Shown here: piece after piece, positions 45,145 to 59,975 of the stretch
Layout: every line of letters begins with the position of its first letter
Position numbering within the stretch: position 1 is the stretch's first letter
Assembly (NCBI RefSeq): GCF_016031635.1
Contig: NZ_JACEGD010000021.1
Span: 62,001 to 126,000 of the forward strand
Source of the DNA: Bradyrhizobium diversitatis
GTDB lineage: Bacteria > Pseudomonadota > Alphaproteobacteria > Rhizobiales > Xanthobacteraceae
Length of the DNA: 64,000 nucleotides
Reading direction: 5' to 3'
Translations under genes and position numbers: made by a program
Notes under the pieces: generated by a model
The model's input: the letters and a program-made list of their open reading frames with translations, nothing else
Told to the model about the DNA's origin: nothing
The model's database searches: none

Positions 45145-45849
45145 TCAGGCACCCAGCACGTCGGCGAGCCGCCGATCCGCGGCGTCGAGCTCTTTCAGGA
45201 ACAGTTCGGCCTCGATCTCCTGCAGATGCGACAACATCAGCGCACGCGCGGCCTCGCCATCGCGCCGGCCGATCGCCTCGACGATCCCGGCGTGGTGATC
45301 GGTGCCGCAAGCCGGCGTGTCGTGGCGGCGGTAGAGCAGGATGATGAGCGAGGAGCGCGCGATCAGCTCCTTGAGGAAGCCGAGATAGATGCTGTGGCCG
45401 CTCATCTCGGCGACGAGACGATGAAACTCGCCGGAGAGCCGCACCGAGGCGCGCGCATCGCCGCGCAGTTCCGCCTCGCGCTCCTCGGTGAGATGGCGCT
45501 GCAGGCGATTGATCCAGGCCGGAGACGCCGCATCGATCGCGTGATCGACGATGGCAGGCTCGATCAGGCGCCGCGCCTCGAACACTTCGCGGGCATCGGC
45601 AGGCGTCGGGCGCGCGACGAACGCGCCGCGGTTCTTCTCGATGTTGACGATGCCCTCATGCGCGAGCTGCTGCAGCGCGGTGCGCACCAGCGTGCGGCTC
45701 GCGCCATAGATATCGCCGATCTCGTCCTCGCCGAGCTTCGTGCCCGGCAGCAGGCGATGTTCGAGGATCGCGGCGGTCACGCCCTCCCGGATACGGCTGA
45801 CCCGATCGCTCGCATCTGGCGCATCGGATTTCGGGCGGGTCTTGGCCAT
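45145..45849 (-). CDS. GntR-family regulator, FCD type
   Basis: 234 residues. A winged HTH (about 15-80, IREGVTAAILEHRLLPGTKLGEDEIGDIYGASRTLVRTALQQLAHEG) is followed by an FCD all-helical effector domain with metal-binding His residues (FHRLVAEMSGH, HHAGIVEAI). It is divergent from the ABC transporter/racemase operon and likely regulates it in response to a substrate or breakdown product. ATG 45849 is chosen at the start of homology; no strong ribosome site. Its gene converges with tetR. Confidence 0.88.
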   Translation of the reverse strand: MAKTRPKSDAPDASDRVSRIREGVTAAILEHRLLPGTKLGEDEIGDIYGASRTLVRTALQQLAHEGIVNIEKNRGAFVARPTPADAREVFEARRLIEPAIVDHAIDAASPAWINRLQRHLTEEREAELRGDARASVRLSGEFHRLVAEMSGHSIYLGFLKELIARSSLIILLYRRHDTPACGTDHHAGIVEAIGRRDGEAARALMLSHLQEIEAELFLKELDAADRRLADVLGA

Positions 45850-45901
45850 GGGCGTGAGGGCTCGATCGGCGACGTTCGACCGAATGGTAGTCGACGAGCT
45901 G

Positions 45902-45932
45902 TATCCAATCACAGGCGAAACTTTATACAATC
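45902..45932. promoter_or_regulatory. Direct repeats upstream of the GntR gene
   Basis: TATCCAATC (45902-45910) and TATACAATC (45924-45932) differ at one base and are 22 bases apart, two helical turns. They may bind the GntR protein or overlap its promoter. Confidence 0.3.
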
Positions 45933-46050
45933 TGAGCCCGTTTTGTGTGCAGAGGAATGCGCCGGCGGCGGCCGGCCAGCCGGAGTCGGAATTGACCTAA
46001 CGATCTGACTCCACTGCACAGTTTTCTGAAATCGGTTGACTGAGGGTTGT

Positions 46051-46065
46051 TGGCACGGAGCTTGC
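46051..46065 (+). promoter_or_regulatory. Consensus sigma-54 promoter of the transporter/racemase operon
   Basis: TGGCACG-GAGC-TTGC matches the RpoN -24/-12 consensus (TGGCACG-N4-TTGC) exactly. Transcription should start near 46077, 28 bases before the ATG at 46105. This also rules out the longer reading frame that begins at 46036. Confidence 0.75.
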
Positions 46066-46104
46066 GGAGAGAGGCGGAAAGCATCGCCCCTGCCCGGACA
46101 CGCC

Positions 46105-47091
46105 ATGGCCACTCCCGCCGCTCTCGAACTGGTCGCCGTCACCAAGCGCTACGACGCCACGCTGGCGGTCGACAACGTCAACCTGAAGATCCCGGCCGGC
46201 ACCTATTGCTGCCTGCTCGGCCCCTCCGGCTGCGGCAAGACCTCGACCCTGCGCATGGTCGCGGGCCACGAGGCGGTCAGCGAGGGCGACATCATCCTCG
46301 GCGCGCAGAACGTCACCGATCTCGAGCCTGCCAAGCGCGGCACGGCGATGATGTTTCAATCCTACGCGCTGTTTCCGCACCTCAGCGTGCTCGACAACGT
46401 CGCCTTCGCCTTGAAGATGCGCGGGATCGACAAGCCGACGCGGCACAAGCGCGCCGGCGAATTGCTCGAGTTGGTCGCAATGAGCCAATATGCGGGCCGT
46501 CTCCCGGCGCAGCTTTCCGGCGGCCAGCAGCAGCGCGTGGCGCTCGCCCGCGCGCTGATCACCGAGCCGCAGATCCTCCTGCTCGACGAGCCGCTCTCCG
46601 CGCTGGATCCGTTCCTGCGGGTGAAGATGCGCGGCGAGTTGAAGCGGCTGCAGCGCGAACTCGGCATCAGCTTCATACAGGTCACCCACGGTCAGGAAGA
46701 GGCTATGGCCCTCGCCGACCACATCGTCGTGATGAACCAGGGCCGGATCGAGCAGCAGGGCACGGCGCGCGACATCTTCCACCATCCCCGCACCGAATTC
46801 GTGGCCCGCTTCATCGGCGGCCACAACGTCCTCAGCGACGCCGGCAAACTCATCGCCGTGCGCGCCGATCAGCTCGGCATCGTGCCGTTCGCTGACGGCG
46901 CGTTCGGCGCGCCGGCGCTGCTGACCCAGACCGAGTACCAGGGCTCCTACATCGCCGTCTCGCTCACGCTCGACGACGGCACCGCCCTGTTCTCCCACCT
47001 TCCCGAGGCCGCCTTCGACGTCCACCCGTTCCGTCCGGGCGATCGCGTGCTGGCCACCTGGGATCCCGCCAAGGCGCAACCCCTGCAATAG
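46105..47091 (+). CDS. ABC transporter ATPase, PotA-like
   Basis: 328 residues. Walker A GPSGCGKT (39-46), Q-loop FQSYALFPHL, signature LSGGQQQRVALARAL, Walker B ILLLDEPLSALD and H-loop VTHGQEEAM are all present, with a TOBE-like C-terminus. It powers import for the PotB/PotC-like permeases and binding protein encoded next. First gene after the sigma-54 promoter. Confidence 0.93.
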   Translation: MATPAALELVAVTKRYDATLAVDNVNLKIPAGTYCCLLGPSGCGKTSTLRMVAGHEAVSEGDIILGAQNVTDLEPAKRGTAMMFQSYALFPHLSVLDNVAFALKMRGIDKPTRHKRAGELLELVAMSQYAGRLPAQLSGGQQQRVALARALITEPQILLLDEPLSALDPFLRVKMRGELKRLQRELGISFIQVTHGQEEAMALADHIVVMNQGRIEQQGTARDIFHHPRTEFVARFIGGHNVLSDAGKLIAVRADQLGIVPFADGAFGAPALLTQTEYQGSYIAVSLTLDDGTALFSHLPEAAFDVHPFRPGDRVLATWDPAKAQPLQ

Positions 47092-47132: not shown

Positions 47133-48422
47133 ATGACCGAGACCACCAGGACGAAGGGCGTCAGCCGCCGCACGCTGCTCAAGGGCACCGCAGGTCTCGC
47201 CGGCCTTGCCGCCGGCTCGGGGGCGATCACCGGCTTTCCCTACGTGAAGTCGGCCGACGCGAAGGTGCTGCGCTATCTCGGCACCGCCGTGAACGAGGGC
47301 GACGACATCGCCAAGCAGTGCCTGAAGGACACCGGCATCAAGATCGAATACATCACCGCGACCACCGACGACGTCACCAAGCGCGTGATGACCCAGCCGA
47401 ATTCCTTCGACGTGCTGGACACCGAATATTTCTCGCTGAAGAAGCTGGTGCCGTCGGGCAACATCCTTGCGCTCGACGCCAAGAAGATCAAACAGTTCGA
47501 CAACATCACGCCCGTCTTCACCAAGGGCGAGACGCCCGGCGGCAAGAAGATCGGCGGCCAGGGCACCGCACCCTGGAAGGTGCTTTATCTCGAAGGCAAG
47601 GACTCCAAGAAGTTCGCGACGTCGCCGACCGAATTCGTCACGCTGATCCCGACCGTCTACAACGCCGACACGCTCGGCATCCGCCCCGACCTGATCAAGC
47701 GTCCGATCAGCACCTGGGCCGAACTGCTCAACCCCGAATTCAAGGGCAAGGCCTCGATCCTCAACATCCCCTCGATCGGCATCATGGATGCCGCGATGGT
47801 CGTGGAAGCCTCCGGCAAGTACAAATATGCCGACAAGGGCAATATGACCAAGGAAGAGATCGATCTCACCATGAAGGTGATGACCGAGGCCAAGAAGGCC
47901 GGCCAGTTCCGCGCCTTCTGGAAGGACTTCAACGAGAGCGTCAACCTGATGGCCTCCGGCGAGACCGTGATTCAGTCGATGTGGTCGCCGGCGGTGACGA
48001 AGGTGCGCTCGATGGGGATCGCCTGCACCTTCCAGCCGCTGAAGGAAGGCTACCGCTCCTGGGCCTCCGGCTTCTGCGTCTCCAAGGGCGTCTCGGGCGC
48101 GAAGCTCGAATGGGCCTATGAGTTCGTCAACTGGTTCCTGTCCGGCTACGCCGGCGCCTATCTCAACCGCCAGGGCTACTACTCCGCCGTCCTCTCCACC
48201 GCGAAGGCGCATATGGAGCCCTACGAGTGGGCCTACTGGATGGAAGGCAAGCCGGCCGAGAAGGACATCAAGGCGCCCGACGGTTCGCTGCTGGAGAAGG
48301 CCGGCGCGGTGCGCGACGGCGGCTCCTACGAGGACCGCATGGGCGCGGTCGCGTGCTGGAACGCGGTGATGGACGAGAACGACTACATGGTCCGCAAGTG
48401 GAATGAGTTCATCGCGGCGTAA
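47133..48422 (+). CDS. ABC transporter substrate-binding protein, PotD-like, Tat signal
   Basis: 429 residues. The N-terminus SRRTLLKGTAGLAGLAAGSGA is a twin-arginine signal, unusual enough to suggest a cofactor or folding need. The rest is a type-II periplasmic binding fold of the spermidine/putrescine cluster, e.g. FDVLDTEYFSLKKLVPSG and ETVIQSMWSPAVTKVRSMG. The substrate is unknown; the neighbouring racemase points to a hydantoin-like or amino-acid-derived compound rather than polyamines. Confidence 0.9.
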   Translation: MTETTRTKGVSRRTLLKGTAGLAGLAAGSGAITGFPYVKSADAKVLRYLGTAVNEGDDIAKQCLKDTGIKIEYITATTDDVTKRVMTQPNSFDVLDTEYFSLKKLVPSGNILALDAKKIKQFDNITPVFTKGETPGGKKIGGQGTAPWKVLYLEGKDSKKFATSPTEFVTLIPTVYNADTLGIRPDLIKRPISTWAELLNPEFKGKASILNIPSIGIMDAAMVVEASGKYKYADKGNMTKEEIDLTMKVMTEAKKAGQFRAFWKDFNESVNLMASGETVIQSMWSPAVTKVRSMGIACTFQPLKEGYRSWASGFCVSKGVSGAKLEWAYEFVNWFLSGYAGAYLNRQGYYSAVLSTAKAHMEPYEWAYWMEGKPAEKDIKAPDGSLLEKAGAVRDGGSYEDRMGAVACWNAVMDENDYMVRKWNEFIAA

Positions 48423-48427
48423 CGGAC

Positions 48428-49381
48428 ATGTCGGAAGAAGTTCTGCAACAGGCAACCCCGGGCTTGATCCCGGGGTCGGGCACAGCGCGCGCCGCAAAGC
48501 CGACGCGCTTATCGCCGTCCTTCATCTCCTGGCTCCAGGCCGGGCCGATGATGCTGGTGTTTCTCGCCTTCTTCCTCATTCCGCTCGTCTTCGTCGTCAT
48601 CGTTTCGTTCTGGGACTACAACGAATACCAGCTGCTGCCGGCTTTCTCCGGCCGCGGCTACACCGACACGTTCGAGGGCTGCCTCGCGCAGCTCCCCGAT
48701 CTCTGCACGATCGGCAAGACCTATCTGAAAACGCTGAAGCTGTGCTTCATGGTCTGGGCCATCACGCTGTTCATCGGCTTCTGGGTCGCCTATTTCCTCG
48801 CGTTCCACGTCAAGTCCAAGACCTGGCAGATGGGACTGTCGCTGCTCTGCACGATCCCGTTCTGGACCTCCAACGTGATCCGCATGATCGCCTGGATTCC
48901 GCTGCTCGGGCGCAATGGCCTGGTGAACTCGGGCCTGATGAAGACGGGCCTGATCAACCATCCCGTGGAATGGCTGCTGTTCTCCGAGTTCTCCGTCGTG
49001 CTGGCGCTAGTGCACCTCTTCACCTTCTTCATGGTGGTGCCGATCTTCAATTCCATGGTGCGCATCGACAAGTCGCTGATCGAGGCGGCCTATGACGCCG
49101 GCGCCACCGGCTTCCAGACCCTCGTCAACGTCATCATTCCATTGGCAAAGCCCGGCATCGTGATCGGCTCGATCTTCGTCATCACCATCGTGATGGGCGA
49201 CTTCATCACCATCGGCGTGATGGGCGGCCAGCAGATCGCCGCCGCCGGCAAGATCATCGAGACGCGGGTCAACGCGTTGCAATTCCCGGCCGCCGCCGCG
49301 AATGCGGTGATCCTGCTCGCGATAACCTTCCTGATCATCACGATGATGTCCCGGATCGTCGACATCAAGAAGGAGCTCTGA
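48428..49381 (+). CDS. ABC transporter permease, PotB-like
   Basis: 317 residues with six membrane segments. The EAA loop reads EAAYDAGATGFQTLVNVIIPLAKPGI. It starts 6 bases after the binding-protein stop. Codons 10-16 are formed by a perfect palindrome (48455-48476) that looks like an inserted intergenic repeat. The rest matches the family. Confidence 0.92.
   Translation: MSEEVLQQATPGLIPGSGTARAAKPTRLSPSFISWLQAGPMMLVFLAFFLIPLVFVVIVSFWDYNEYQLLPAFSGRGYTDTFEGCLAQLPDLCTIGKTYLKTLKLCFMVWAITLFIGFWVAYFLAFHVKSKTWQMGLSLLCTIPFWTSNVIRMIAWIPLLGRNGLVNSGLMKTGLINHPVEWLLFSEFSVVLALVHLFTFFMVVPIFNSMVRIDKSLIEAAYDAGATGFQTLVNVIIPLAKPGIVIGSIFVITIVMGDFITIGVMGGQQIAAAGKIIETRVNALQFPAAAANAVILLAITFLIITMMSRIVDIKKEL
48455..48476. 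repeat. Palindromic repeat inside the PotB-like coding region
   Basis: ACCCCGGG-CTTGAT-CCCGGGGT, 8-base arms around a 6-base centre. In frame it encodes TPGLIPG near the N-terminus of the permease, before the first membrane segment. Confidence 0.6.
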
Positions 49382-49383
49382 GC

Positions 49384-50262
49384 ATGAGGGAAGGACGTCC
49401 GCGCTCTTTCTACGTGCTCGCGATCTTCTTCGCGGCCTATGTGCTATTTCTCTACGGACCGATGATCGCGATCTACGTGCTGTCGTTCCAGGGGCCGCAG
49501 GGCGGCCTCACCTTCCCGATGAACGGCGTCTCGACCTTCTGGATCGCGAAACTGTTCCAGGGCACCGGCATCGTCGATCTCGGCGCGGCCTTCCGCCGCT
49601 CGCTGCTGCTTGGCCTCGTCGTGATGGTCCTCACCGTCGTGCTGTCGGTCGCCGCAGGCATGGCGTTCCGCCGTAAATTCAAGGCGCAAAGCATCCTGTT
49701 CTATTCGGCGATCGCGAGCCTGATCGTACCCTCGATCATCACCTCGCTCGGCATCTCGCTTGAATTCCGCATCATCGACGATCTGATCAAGGCGCATTGG
49801 AACGAGAATTTCGAAACCTCGATGGGCCTGCTCACCTCCGGGCTTGGCGCGCATCTGACCTGGACGCTTCCGTTCGGGCTTCTCATCATGTTCGCGATCT
49901 TCAACCGCTTCGACCCGCGCCTCGAGGAAGCCGCGCGCGATCTCGGCGCGACACCGTGGCAGACCTTCCGTCATGTCGTGCTGCCGATCATCCTGCCGTC
50001 GGTGATCGGCATCGGCCTGTTCGGCTTCACGCTGTCCTGGGACGAACTCGCCCGCTCCAGCCAGGCCATCGGCGCGGTGAATACATTGCCGCTCGATCTG
50101 CAGGGACTCACCACCACCGTGACGAACCCCGACATCTATGCGCTCGGCACTGTGATCTCGGCGGTCTCGTTCACCGTGATCTCGCTTGCGCTCGGCACCA
50201 TCCACGTGCTCAACAAGCGGCAGGCGGCCAAGGGCTCGGACGCCGGCAAGGGGCTCGTCTGA
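49384..50262 (+). CDS. ABC transporter permease, PotC-like
   Basis: 292 residues with six membrane segments. The EAA loop reads EEAARDLGATPWQTFRHVVLPIILPSVIG. It begins 2 bases after the previous permease stop and completes the four-component importer. Confidence 0.92.
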   Translation: MREGRPRSFYVLAIFFAAYVLFLYGPMIAIYVLSFQGPQGGLTFPMNGVSTFWIAKLFQGTGIVDLGAAFRRSLLLGLVVMVLTVVLSVAAGMAFRRKFKAQSILFYSAIASLIVPSIITSLGISLEFRIIDDLIKAHWNENFETSMGLLTSGLGAHLTWTLPFGLLIMFAIFNRFDPRLEEAARDLGATPWQTFRHVVLPIILPSVIGIGLFGFTLSWDELARSSQAIGAVNTLPLDLQGLTTTVTNPDIYALGTVISAVSFTVISLALGTIHVLNKRQAAKGSDAGKGLV

Positions 50263-50282: not shown

Positions 50283-51014
50283 ATGCGGCTTCACGTCGTC
50301 AACCCCAACACCACCGCGTCGATGACGGCGAAGATCGCCGCTGCGGCGCGCAGCGTCGCCCTGCCCGGGACGGTGATCGACGCGCGTCAGCCGGCGATGG
50401 GCCCGGTCTCGATCGAGGGCTTTTACGACGAGGCCTTCGCAGTCCCCGGCATGCTCGGCTGCATCCGCGAGGCCGACCGCGACGGCGCGGACGCGCACAT
50501 CATCGCCTGCTTCGACGACACTGGCTTGGATGCCGCGCGCGCCGCCGCGAAGGCGCCGGTGATCGGCATCGGCGAAGCAGGCTTCCACGTGGCGAGCCTG
50601 ATCGCCGCACGCTTCGCCGTGGTGACGACGCTCGGTGTGTCCATCGTGCCGATCGAGCACAATTTGCGGAAATACGGCCTCGCCGAGCGCTGCGCCCGCG
50701 TCCGGGCGGCCGACGTGCCGGTGCTGGCACTGGAAGAGCGCGACACTGATGCACTCGGTAAGATTTCGGCGGAGATCACTGCCGCGATCCGCGACGACCG
50801 CGCCGAAGCCATCGTGCTCGGCTGTGCCGGCATGGCCGACCTCGCCACTGAGCTCGCCGCCACGCACGGCCTGCCCGTGGTCGACGGCGTCACTGCTGCG
50901 GTGACGCTGGCGGAATCACTGGGGCGGCTGGGGTTGAAGACCTCCCGGCTCGGGCCCTATGCCGCGCCGCGATCGAAGCCCTATGATGGATTGTTGTCGC
51001 AGTTTCGGCCGTAG
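50283..51014 (+). CDS. Aspartate/glutamate/hydantoin racemase family protein
   Basis: 243 residues. Two catalytic cysteines are in place: Cys76 in HIIACFDDTGLDAAR and Cys181 in IVLGCAGMADL; the N-terminus MRLHVVNPNTTASMT is typical of HyuE/allantoin racemase. It would interconvert the stereoisomers of a 5-substituted hydantoin, allantoin or an amino acid after import by the ABC system. Last gene of the sigma-54-driven operon. No hydantoinase or carbamoylase lies next to it, so the later steps must be elsewhere. Confidence 0.88.
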   Translation: MRLHVVNPNTTASMTAKIAAAARSVALPGTVIDARQPAMGPVSIEGFYDEAFAVPGMLGCIREADRDGADAHIIACFDDTGLDAARAAAKAPVIGIGEAGFHVASLIAARFAVVTTLGVSIVPIEHNLRKYGLAERCARVRAADVPVLALEERDTDALGKISAEITAAIRDDRAEAIVLGCAGMADLATELAATHGLPVVDGVTAAVTLAESLGRLGLKTSRLGPYAAPRSKPYDGLLSQFRP

Positions 51015-58879: not shown

Positions 58880-59779
58880 TCAGTCCCGCCCCTTCTGCGC
58901 CCGATACAGGCTCGGCGTCGTCCCGACCGCCTTGCGGAAGGCGCGGTTGAAATTAGCCTGCGACGAAAATCCCGCGGCAAAGGCGATGTCGACCAGCGGG
59001 CGATCGCTGGTGGACAGGAGCCGCTTGGCGAGATCAAGACGCTGACGGCTAACATATTCATGCGGCGCGCTACCCGTCGCGGCCTTGAAGCTGCGGGAGA
59101 AATGCGCCGGGCTCATGCACGCCACCGAGGCCAGATCCTTCACCGTGACATCGCGCTCGACGGATGCGTCGATGAACTCCGTGACGCGCGACAGGCGCCT
59201 GGCATCGAGCGGCTTCTGGACGGCATACGACTGCTTCAGCCGGACTGACGTTGCCGCATAGCTGTGCACCAGATGAGCCGACAGGGCCCGTCCCAGGCTT
59301 TCGACCAAAAGGCGGCCGGTGGACGTTTCCTGCTCGAGCTCGGCGAGGATCCGGGTGGCGACATGCTCGATGAACATGTCTTGATCGATGGCCTCGTAGC
59401 GGATCGACATTCCCGACGGATCGATGTCGAGATCCCGGAGCATGGTGTCGTCGAACGGCTGTCCGGGAAGAAAGATATGCAGGCATTCCTGCATCTGGTT
59501 CTCGACGCGGATGAAATCCTCGCGGATGCCGGCCGGACAGAGCCACACGGTGCCCCTTCTGCCGAAAGTGCGCTGCCGCATGCCCGCGCCTTCCCGGTCG
59601 ACGACCGAGCTGCCGCGCAGCAGGATGGCGATTTCGGTGTCGCGCGGCAATTGCGGGGGAAGATCGCCCGGCTCATGGCTCCAGCGCTCGGCCAGGAGAT
59701 GCCCCCACCGCCGGTCGTTGGACGTCTGAAGCATTCTGCCGGTAACATATTTATCGACAGAGTTGCCAAGCATACCCAT
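58880..59779 (-). CDS. AraC-family transcriptional regulator
   Basis: 299 residues. The last 100 hold two HTH motifs: VKDLASVACMSPAHFSRSFKAATG and VDIAFAAGFSSQANFNRAFRKAVGTTPSLYR. The N-terminal half would bind an effector. It is divergent from the molybdoenzyme operon and probably controls it. ATG 59779 has GGAG 8 bases upstream; the frame is open upstream but reads through the intergenic region. Confidence 0.9.
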   Translation of the reverse strand: MGMLGNSVDKYVTGRMLQTSNDRRWGHLLAERWSHEPGDLPPQLPRDTEIAILLRGSSVVDREGAGMRQRTFGRRGTVWLCPAGIREDFIRVENQMQECLHIFLPGQPFDDTMLRDLDIDPSGMSIRYEAIDQDMFIEHVATRILAELEQETSTGRLLVESLGRALSAHLVHSYAATSVRLKQSYAVQKPLDARRLSRVTEFIDASVERDVTVKDLASVACMSPAHFSRSFKAATGSAPHEYVSRQRLDLAKRLLSTSDRPLVDIAFAAGFSSQANFNRAFRKAVGTTPSLYRAQKGRD

Positions 59780-59818
59780 CGGAAATCTCCGCCAGATCAC
59801 GCGATGTGTGGGCAGAAA

Positions 59819-59843
59819 GGTATTGCCGGGTCCAGCAATTACC
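59819..59843. promoter_or_regulatory. Dyad between araC-type gene and molybdoenzyme operon
   Basis: GGTATTGC-N8-GCAATTACC is an inverted repeat with one extra T in the right arm. It lies in the 196-base divergent space and is a candidate binding site for the AraC-like protein; inference from position and symmetry. Confidence 0.35.
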
Positions 59844-59975
59844 ATGCCAGAGATCCGGCGGTGCGTCCACCGGCCCCGAGCAGTCCGGGACAACAACACC
59901 GCACATTTTGAAAAGCCAGACTGCGCCCGGCCGCCGCATCCTTGGTCGTCTTGAAATCAGGAAGCGGAGAGATCC

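Follow-up and report, generated by a model that had tools for sequence, protein, structure and literature searches.

A conserved sigma-54 promoter element ahead of an importer/racemase operon in Bradyrhizobium diversitatis

What switches on an operon that joins an ABC importer to a racemase of the Asp/Glu/hydantoin family, and what does that operon bring into the cell? The question arises from a stretch of 64,000 nucleotides of Bradyrhizobium diversitatis (called the window here, with positions counted from its first letter), in which a first-pass annotation, made from the letters alone, saw a consensus sigma-54 promoter, control by nitrogen status as well as by a divergent GntR-type protein, and import of hydantoins, allantoin or D-amino acids. 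I give a probability of roughly three in four to the following reading as a whole: a sigma-54 promoter serves five genes, its AAA+ activator is most likely NtrC, the GntR protein modulates it, and the imported compound is of the hydantoin, allantoin or ureide type.

The five genes lie on the forward strand. The first encodes an importer ATPase with a TOBE domain, similar to PotA and PhnT2 by family and model searches (46105-47091), whose orthologue in Bradyrhizobium sp. DOA9 is named ydcT. It is followed by a solute-binding protein assigned to SBP_bac_8 by a Pfam-type family match, with an SRRTLLK leader that by eye looks twin-arginine-like (47133-48422), and by two permeases placed by the same kinds of search as the ATPase, one resembling PotB/PotH (48428-49381) and the other PotC/PotI (49384-50262). 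The last gene encodes the racemase (50283-51014). The genes are separated by gaps of 41, 5, 2 and 20 bases, and all five are probably carried on one transcript. Facing away from them on the reverse strand is the gene for an FCD-domain GntR regulator (45145-45849), recognised by its Pfam GntR and FCD domains.

The proposed promoter, TGGCACGGAGCTTGC, occupies positions 46051-46065 of the forward strand. In a pattern scan of the window, this 15-mer (TGGCACG-GAGC-TTGC) matches TGGCACG-N4-TTGC with no mismatch, as had been claimed, with the -24 GG at 46052-46053, the -12 GC at 46064-46065, and 10 bases from GG to GC. The first gene had been placed some 40 bases beyond it, and indeed 39 bases separate the end of the element from the ATG at 46105; transcription of the operon is predicted to start at about 46077. 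An exact 11-base match is expected about 0.03 times per 64 kb, counting both strands (by arithmetic that assumes equal base composition). The window on its own might still be read as holding a chance match, with a sigma-70 promoter driving the operon, since allowing one mismatch yields 2 matches against 2.2 expected from shuffles, no excess at all. The genome of 8.45 Mb speaks against that reading, with 21 exact matches as compared to 4 for a reversed control pattern, and 67 matches to the looser TGGCAYRN4WTGC as compared to 13. Judged by eye and not by family search, some of the 21 exact sites precede nifD, nifH and several transporter genes, others precede regulators or unrelated genes, and for some no gene can clearly be made out behind the site. 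Elsewhere in the window, a one-mismatch element, TGGCATGGTAATTGC, lies on the reverse strand at 59835-59849, its first base 49 bases before a frame of 306 codons (58880-59800, reverse strand) that reads by eye as an AraC-type regulator.

Conservation of the element was assessed over two sets of loci, 110 in all. One set comprises relatives of the racemase from named genomes, limited to the best 80 of more than 500 loci; for the other, matches to the binding protein were sought in 98 genomes of the genus, 68 of which had one at E up to 1e-80; 61 of the 68 carry a copy of about 85% identity or more, and 30 loci were taken. In 77 of the 110 loci the ATPase was at least 50% identical and its start could be mapped (60 at 90% or more, 17 at 52-72%), and the other 33, where the ATPase was missing, cut or too distant, were left out. 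The two sets share strains, and the 60 close loci reduce to 52 distinct upstream regions.

The element is present with at most two mismatches in its 11 defined positions in 51 of the 52 close regions (43 exact, 5 with one mismatch and 3 with two), the sole miss being locus L107, where the region is deleted. Over the 51 regions that could be aligned, mean column identity is 0.973 for the element (46050-46065), as compared to 0.702 for the 23 bases just before it (46026-46048), and it is 0.85 for the leader. The deletion in L107, which comes from a single Bradyrhizobium genome (G079), has removed about 190 bases between the GntR and ATPase genes, and may be either natural or a fault of assembly.

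The more distant orthologues come from Oryzibacter, Pleomorphomonas, Stella, Propylenella, Neorhizobium, Agrobacterium, Phyllobacterium and three other Bradyrhizobium, among others. All 17 have the element (2 exact, 12 with one mismatch, 3 with two), and its first base lies 36-89 bases ahead of the ATPase start, which in L060 and L069 was extrapolated from the alignment and is not an ATG. For the 14 sites with no more than one mismatch, an equal match was reached in 0-8 of 1000 shuffles each, while the three two-mismatch sites are weak one by one (35-49 of 1000), and these tests are not independent, the loci being related. The element is thus conserved in orthologues, close and divergent, beyond what neutral drift would leave, and because of this conservation and the enrichment in the genome it stands above chance. 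In the Rhizobiaceae-type orthologues L089, L091 and L100 one can also see by eye a shared sequence, CAAGCACTTAGCG, shortly upstream of the element, and a similar one, CTTAAGCG, in the same position in L099.

Dependence on sigma-54 has been reported for the orthologous promoter of a relative. A 2026 study of the two RpoN proteins of Bradyrhizobium sp. DOA9 (PMC13207237) gives in its Table 1 ydcT, a 'putative ABC transporter ATP-binding protein', as a target of RpoNc with the promoter TGGCACGGACCTTGC at -40, and one sentence of its text names potH, potC and ydcT as down without functional RpoN. The DOA9 genome contains that 15-mer a single time, in the orthologous position (locus L048), before an operon orthologous to the present one (ydcT being BRADOA9_v1_50728), and the sequence differs from the B. 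diversitatis element at a single base of the N4 spacer. In the table of that study, hits to a loose motif are crossed with differentially expressed genes. From the text of the paper, its gel-shift probe 'Pm::ABC-transporter' cannot be tied to ydcT, nor can potH and potC be equated with the permeases of this operon. Because the DOA9 orthologue is listed as an RpoNc target and is down without RpoN, the promoter considered here is essentially known, albeit reported in DOA9 without a mapped start. This listing, the conservation across genera, the enrichment in the genome and the failure to find a sigma-70-type match anywhere in 45800-46200 together make a chance match hardly credible. The element is best regarded as a real, conserved promoter element, and the sigma-54 control asserted by the first-pass annotation is well supported by comparison of sequences and by the published listing.

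The words 'GntR' and 'racemase' occur nowhere in the main text of PMC13207237, and 'racemase' is likewise absent from the main texts of the nitrogen-stress and start-site papers on S. meliloti and the start-site paper on B. japonicum. A literature search over a partial library brought up no other paper on the operon, as judged by titles and the beginnings of abstracts. Relative to that library, the new findings are that the element is conserved across genera, that the GntR protein has a putative operator, that the racemase can be placed at the level of residues and that sigma-54 sites recur ahead of an unrelated importer.

The divergent regulator has a putative operator of its own, a pair of near-palindromes, CTGTATCCAAT and CTTTATACAAT, which lie 22 bp apart at 45899-45932 and resemble ATTGYATACAAT. 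Positions 45900-45933 are almost invariant (mean identity of 0.96 in the 51 aligned regions). The association with the regulator was examined in 18 loci, the 17 divergent ones and L030. A palindrome within two mismatches of ATTGYATACAAT is found in all 10 divergent loci that have the GntR gene and in 1 of the 8 loci that do not, for a Fisher p of 0.00025, a value that ignores relatedness and is partly circular in that the template came from the same sequences. Taken singly, the matches in L055 and L056 are weak, equalled in 13 and 27 of 200 shuffles. In the close regions the operator is found within two mismatches in 47 of 52, and the misses are at three mismatches in L039, L054 and L126, at four in L107 and at five in L030. 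L107 retains the GntR gene and has lost the operator region; L030 has lost the gene, the operator and the adjacent conserved block (block 2, below), and keeps block 3 and the sigma-54 element.

The putative operator lies about 145-180 bases upstream of the predicted transcription start. This is a zone where enhancers of sigma-54 promoters are usually found, and because the operator sits there, the GntR protein could possibly interfere with activation. The double regulation that had been proposed is supported in one of its halves: that the operator is kept and lost with the gene argues, at the level of sequence, for control by the GntR protein, while the nitrogen half finds no such support.

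Where, then, would an activator bind? Two conserved blocks lie between the operator and the promoter. Block 2 (45936-45953; mean column identity of 0.873 over 45939-45953) is a candidate enhancer, and it contains what a search for NtrC sites upstream of 46105, suggested in the first-pass annotation, brings to light: GCCC-N7-GTGC at 45936-45950, an imperfect version of the NtrC-like palindrome. Block 3 (CTAACGATCTGACTCCACTGCACAGTTTT, 45997-46025) is the more conserved, with a mean identity of 0.947 over 45998-46024 against 0.70 on both flanks. It contains no NtrC-like palindrome within one mismatch, and is possibly the site of an activator or of an architectural protein.

The best match to GCAC-N7-GTGC is exact in 4 of the 52 close regions, with one mismatch in 36 and two in 12. 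Such a palindrome is not rare: of the 21 exact sigma-54 sites in the genome, 5 (this one among them) have one with no more than one mismatch in the preceding 260 bases. Over the whole genome, the exact palindrome 26-86 nt upstream of a loose sigma-54 element occurs 5 times as compared to 1 for the control, with no promoter of a nitrogen gene recognised among the five, in a test that covers exact palindromes only and excludes the present site, one mismatch off. Long reading frames contain or overlap four of these hits, including a frame on the opposite strand for glutamine synthetase (taken to be glnII), and the fifth is L157. Inspection by eye of the loci for glutamine synthetase and for ammonium transporters in this genome brought out no NtrC site common to them. 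Words were also counted upstream of 42 of the 67 TGGCAYRN4WTGC sites, namely those having a G+C below 0.62 and an open reading frame of at least 80 codons downstream, and no convincing activator motif emerged; the strongest 7-base word, AAGCTCC, is in 7 regions as compared to 0.9 expected, which was judged not significant in view of how many words were compared. No NtrC site is therefore claimed at this promoter: the palindrome is imperfect and not rare, and the exact-palindrome test did not pick out nitrogen genes. Control by NtrC and nitrogen status, as first proposed, gains no support from these results.

The genome has no shortage of other candidates. NtrC, NtrX, NifA and FlbD are all encoded in it, with scores that exceed the curated cut-offs, and the sigma-54 activator domain has six further strong matches, which amounts to nine strong matches besides NtrC, one of them shortened. 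None of the 14 activator-domain matches is on the contig of the operon. (There is also, at L139, position C1:301710 of this genome, a second nifA-like frame of 455 codons, apparently shortened, to which the nifA model matched only as far as position 349 of 534.) One must therefore consider that the promoter answers to NifA, NtrX, FlbD or an unnamed protein and that the signal is something other than nitrogen status as such. The number of candidates favors this, as do the NtrC-site test and the greater conservation of a block with no NtrC-like palindrome. NifA is active as well in free-living, nitrogen-fixing, microaerobic growth. It is from such growth that the DOA9 expression data were obtained (PMC13207237). 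On the other side, an activator gene is linked to the operon in only 1 of the 110 loci (L099, with ten query sequences), which favors a global activator, and several of the other genes behind such sites look like nitrogen-scavenging genes, though others do not. On balance I consider an activator other than NtrC a serious possibility but the less probable one, and NtrC, because it is global, the simplest guess.

The nature of the imported compound is approached most readily through the racemase. Its closest relatives in the PDB are 3qvj/3qvk and 5lfd/5lg5, allantoin/hydantoin racemases (3qvj of K. pneumoniae, 5lfd/5lg5 of P. fluorescens) that it matches over nearly their full length with E of 7e-62 and 2e-47, respectively. 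C76 and C181, which I take to be its catalytic cysteine positions, align with residues that are serine in the 3qvk chain. The structures 3QVJ and 5LG5 are called allantoin racemases in PMC12661438, where Asn12, Met17, Thr118 and Thr119 are described as typical of allantoin-hydantoin racemases. These contact residues are kept here as N9, M14, T115 and T116, if the numbering in that paper is two ahead of the chain index (as the two threonines imply). By its family domain, its two cysteines and these four residues, the protein can be placed in the allantoin/hydantoin racemase group. It differs from those enzymes in its setting, an operon with a Pot-like importer and no allantoinase or hydantoinase.

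The importer considered alone might lead one elsewhere. Its subunits score best against the Pot, Ydc and PhnT models of NCBIfam, the only matches of the binding protein in the PDB are weak ones to the polyamine binders PotD and PotF, and the naming of ydcT in DOA9, with potH and potC in the same sentence (PMC13207237), points the same way. From these one might conclude that the operon imports polyamines, in the manner of PotABCD or YdcSTUV, and that the racemase is incidental. The scores do not reach so far: the ATPase reaches the curated cut-off of none of the 25 models shown out of 186, both permeases fall below those of all the models they matched, and the binding protein matched no NCBIfam model, which among the models shown leaves no subunit above a cut-off for PotABCD or YdcSTUV. 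Moreover, the racemase remains last in the operon across the divergent orthologues (with the full gene order in 15 of 17), its relatives travel with other importers elsewhere, and the racemization of an achiral polyamine would make no sense. Polyamine import is improbable in light of these considerations, and a substrate of the hydantoin, allantoin or ureide type is the reading I prefer.

The preferred reading draws also on the paralogues. Clusters for hydantoin utilization (hyu) generally combine a racemase, an importer and a regulator with a hydantoinase and a carbamoylase. The present operon shares the first three with them and has neither of the last two, nor is any hydrolase gene found within it. 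The genome holds four racemase genes of this type (E up to 1e-5, this one included), and the other three are also near importer genes (gene types assigned by eye unless family-searched). On contig C42, an exact sigma-54 site is followed after 30 bases by the start of a Pot-like importer; facing the importer are an FCD-GntR gene, whose product is 39% identical to the regulator described above, and then the racemase. On C54 the gene next to the racemase encodes a D-hydantoinase; a carbon-nitrogen hydrolase is nearby, and there are genes of a peptide-type importer, one of which, about 10 kb away, lies behind TGGCATACCATTTGC. The neighbors of the C79 racemase are a Pot-like importer and a gene of GntR type; a D-hydantoinase lies at a distance of about 4 kb, and the 15-kb stretch contains no match to TGGCAYRN4WTGC. 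Two of the three paralogues thus lie within about 4 kb of a D-hydantoinase gene in clusters that, like hyu clusters, hold an importer. A sigma-54 site in three of the four racemase clusters is by itself suggestive only, there being 67 such sites in the genome. Of the substrates first proposed, then, hydantoins and allantoin are favored by family and context, namely the racemase family, the contact residues and the two neighboring D-hydantoinases, and nothing was found to favor D-Asp or D-Glu.

Two other loci of the genome may be mentioned in this connection. Divergent sigma-54 elements at C79:24457 (L183 1958, reverse strand) and C79:25250 (L183 2751, forward strand) serve an NCS1-type permease (cytosine/purine/allantoin) and an amidohydrolase, likely a second nitrogen-scavenging pair controlled by RpoN. 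On C56 an isochorismatase-family gene (L185 2845-3651, reverse strand) lies behind an exact element, and its only NCBIfam match at E up to 1e-40 is to biuret amidohydrolase, at 258 bits, below the cut-off of 370.

The association of sigma-54 sites with such racemases extends to importers of another kind. At four loci a racemase relative (62-69% identical) follows genes for a peptide-type importer, and in all three that permit the test an exact TGGCAYRN4TTGC precedes the importer genes, the fourth, L095, being cut off. In L068 (Betaproteobacteria), L079 (Phreatobacter) and L093 (Burkholderiales) the site starts 46, 50 and 85 bases before the first gene. An alternative start in L068 makes the distance 67 bases, and it is there that a single transcript is least certain, about 1 kb before the racemase having no assigned gene. 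The probability of one such site in a 150-base stretch is about 0.0017, using the rate in L055-L101 with these sites included. A one-strand scan of the 29 racemase loci in which no Pot-like ATPase had been mapped upstream, allowing TGGCAYRN4TTGC a single mismatch at most, gave 13 matches over the whole stretches as compared to 5 for the reversed pattern. Beyond the three loci just named, the only site at an importer start was in L061, with one mismatch and 191 bases before the first importer frame, in a scan where frame starts are approximate and at least L066 stops short of the operon start. The loci of Mesorhizobium and Ancylobacter with racemases of 60-67% identity have no clear sigma-54 site at the operon start, and none was seen at an importer start in the rest of those scanned, from Mesorhizobium, Sinorhizobium, Ancylobacter and others. 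Sigma-54 control of racemase-importer loci, as judged from these sites, is recurrent but not universal.

A broader conjecture, to which I would give rather less than even odds, is that alpha- and beta-proteobacteria possess a scavenging module under RpoN control whose constant component is a racemase of this type, and that at least two unrelated ABC importers, Pot-like and peptide-type, have been joined to the racemase on separate occasions, a sigma-54 promoter preceding each. The FCD-GntR operator of the Pot-like version would lie in the enhancer zone so that sensing of the substrate could veto activation, and the 29 bases at 45997-46025 would be the site of an activator yet to be assigned.

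The operon itself would work as follows. RNA polymerase with RpoN would wait at 46051-46065 and begin transcription near 46077 once an AAA+ activator bound upstream, probably within 45936-46025, became active; if this is NtrC, as seems most likely, expression would rise when nitrogen is short. The FCD-GntR protein, bound to the operator pair, would probably repress its own gene and hinder activation of the operon until released by a ligand, probably the imported compound or a product of it. What the importer takes up would be a small ring compound rich in nitrogen, of the hydantoin, allantoin or ureide type, and through the racemase both of its enantiomers would become usable by stereospecific hydrolases encoded elsewhere. 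The activator, the repression and the substrate are here matters of inference.

The operon is a well-supported addition to the RpoN regulon of Bradyrhizobium and its relatives, and one with a plausible class of substrate. B. diversitatis is a soil bacterium related to the symbionts of soybean, and since legumes of the soybean type move nitrogen as ureides such as allantoin, the question of substrate bears on symbiosis. The findings suggest that root symbionts may scavenge ureide- or hydantoin-like nitrogen when nitrogen is short, with the GntR switch deciding whether the substrate is worth importing.
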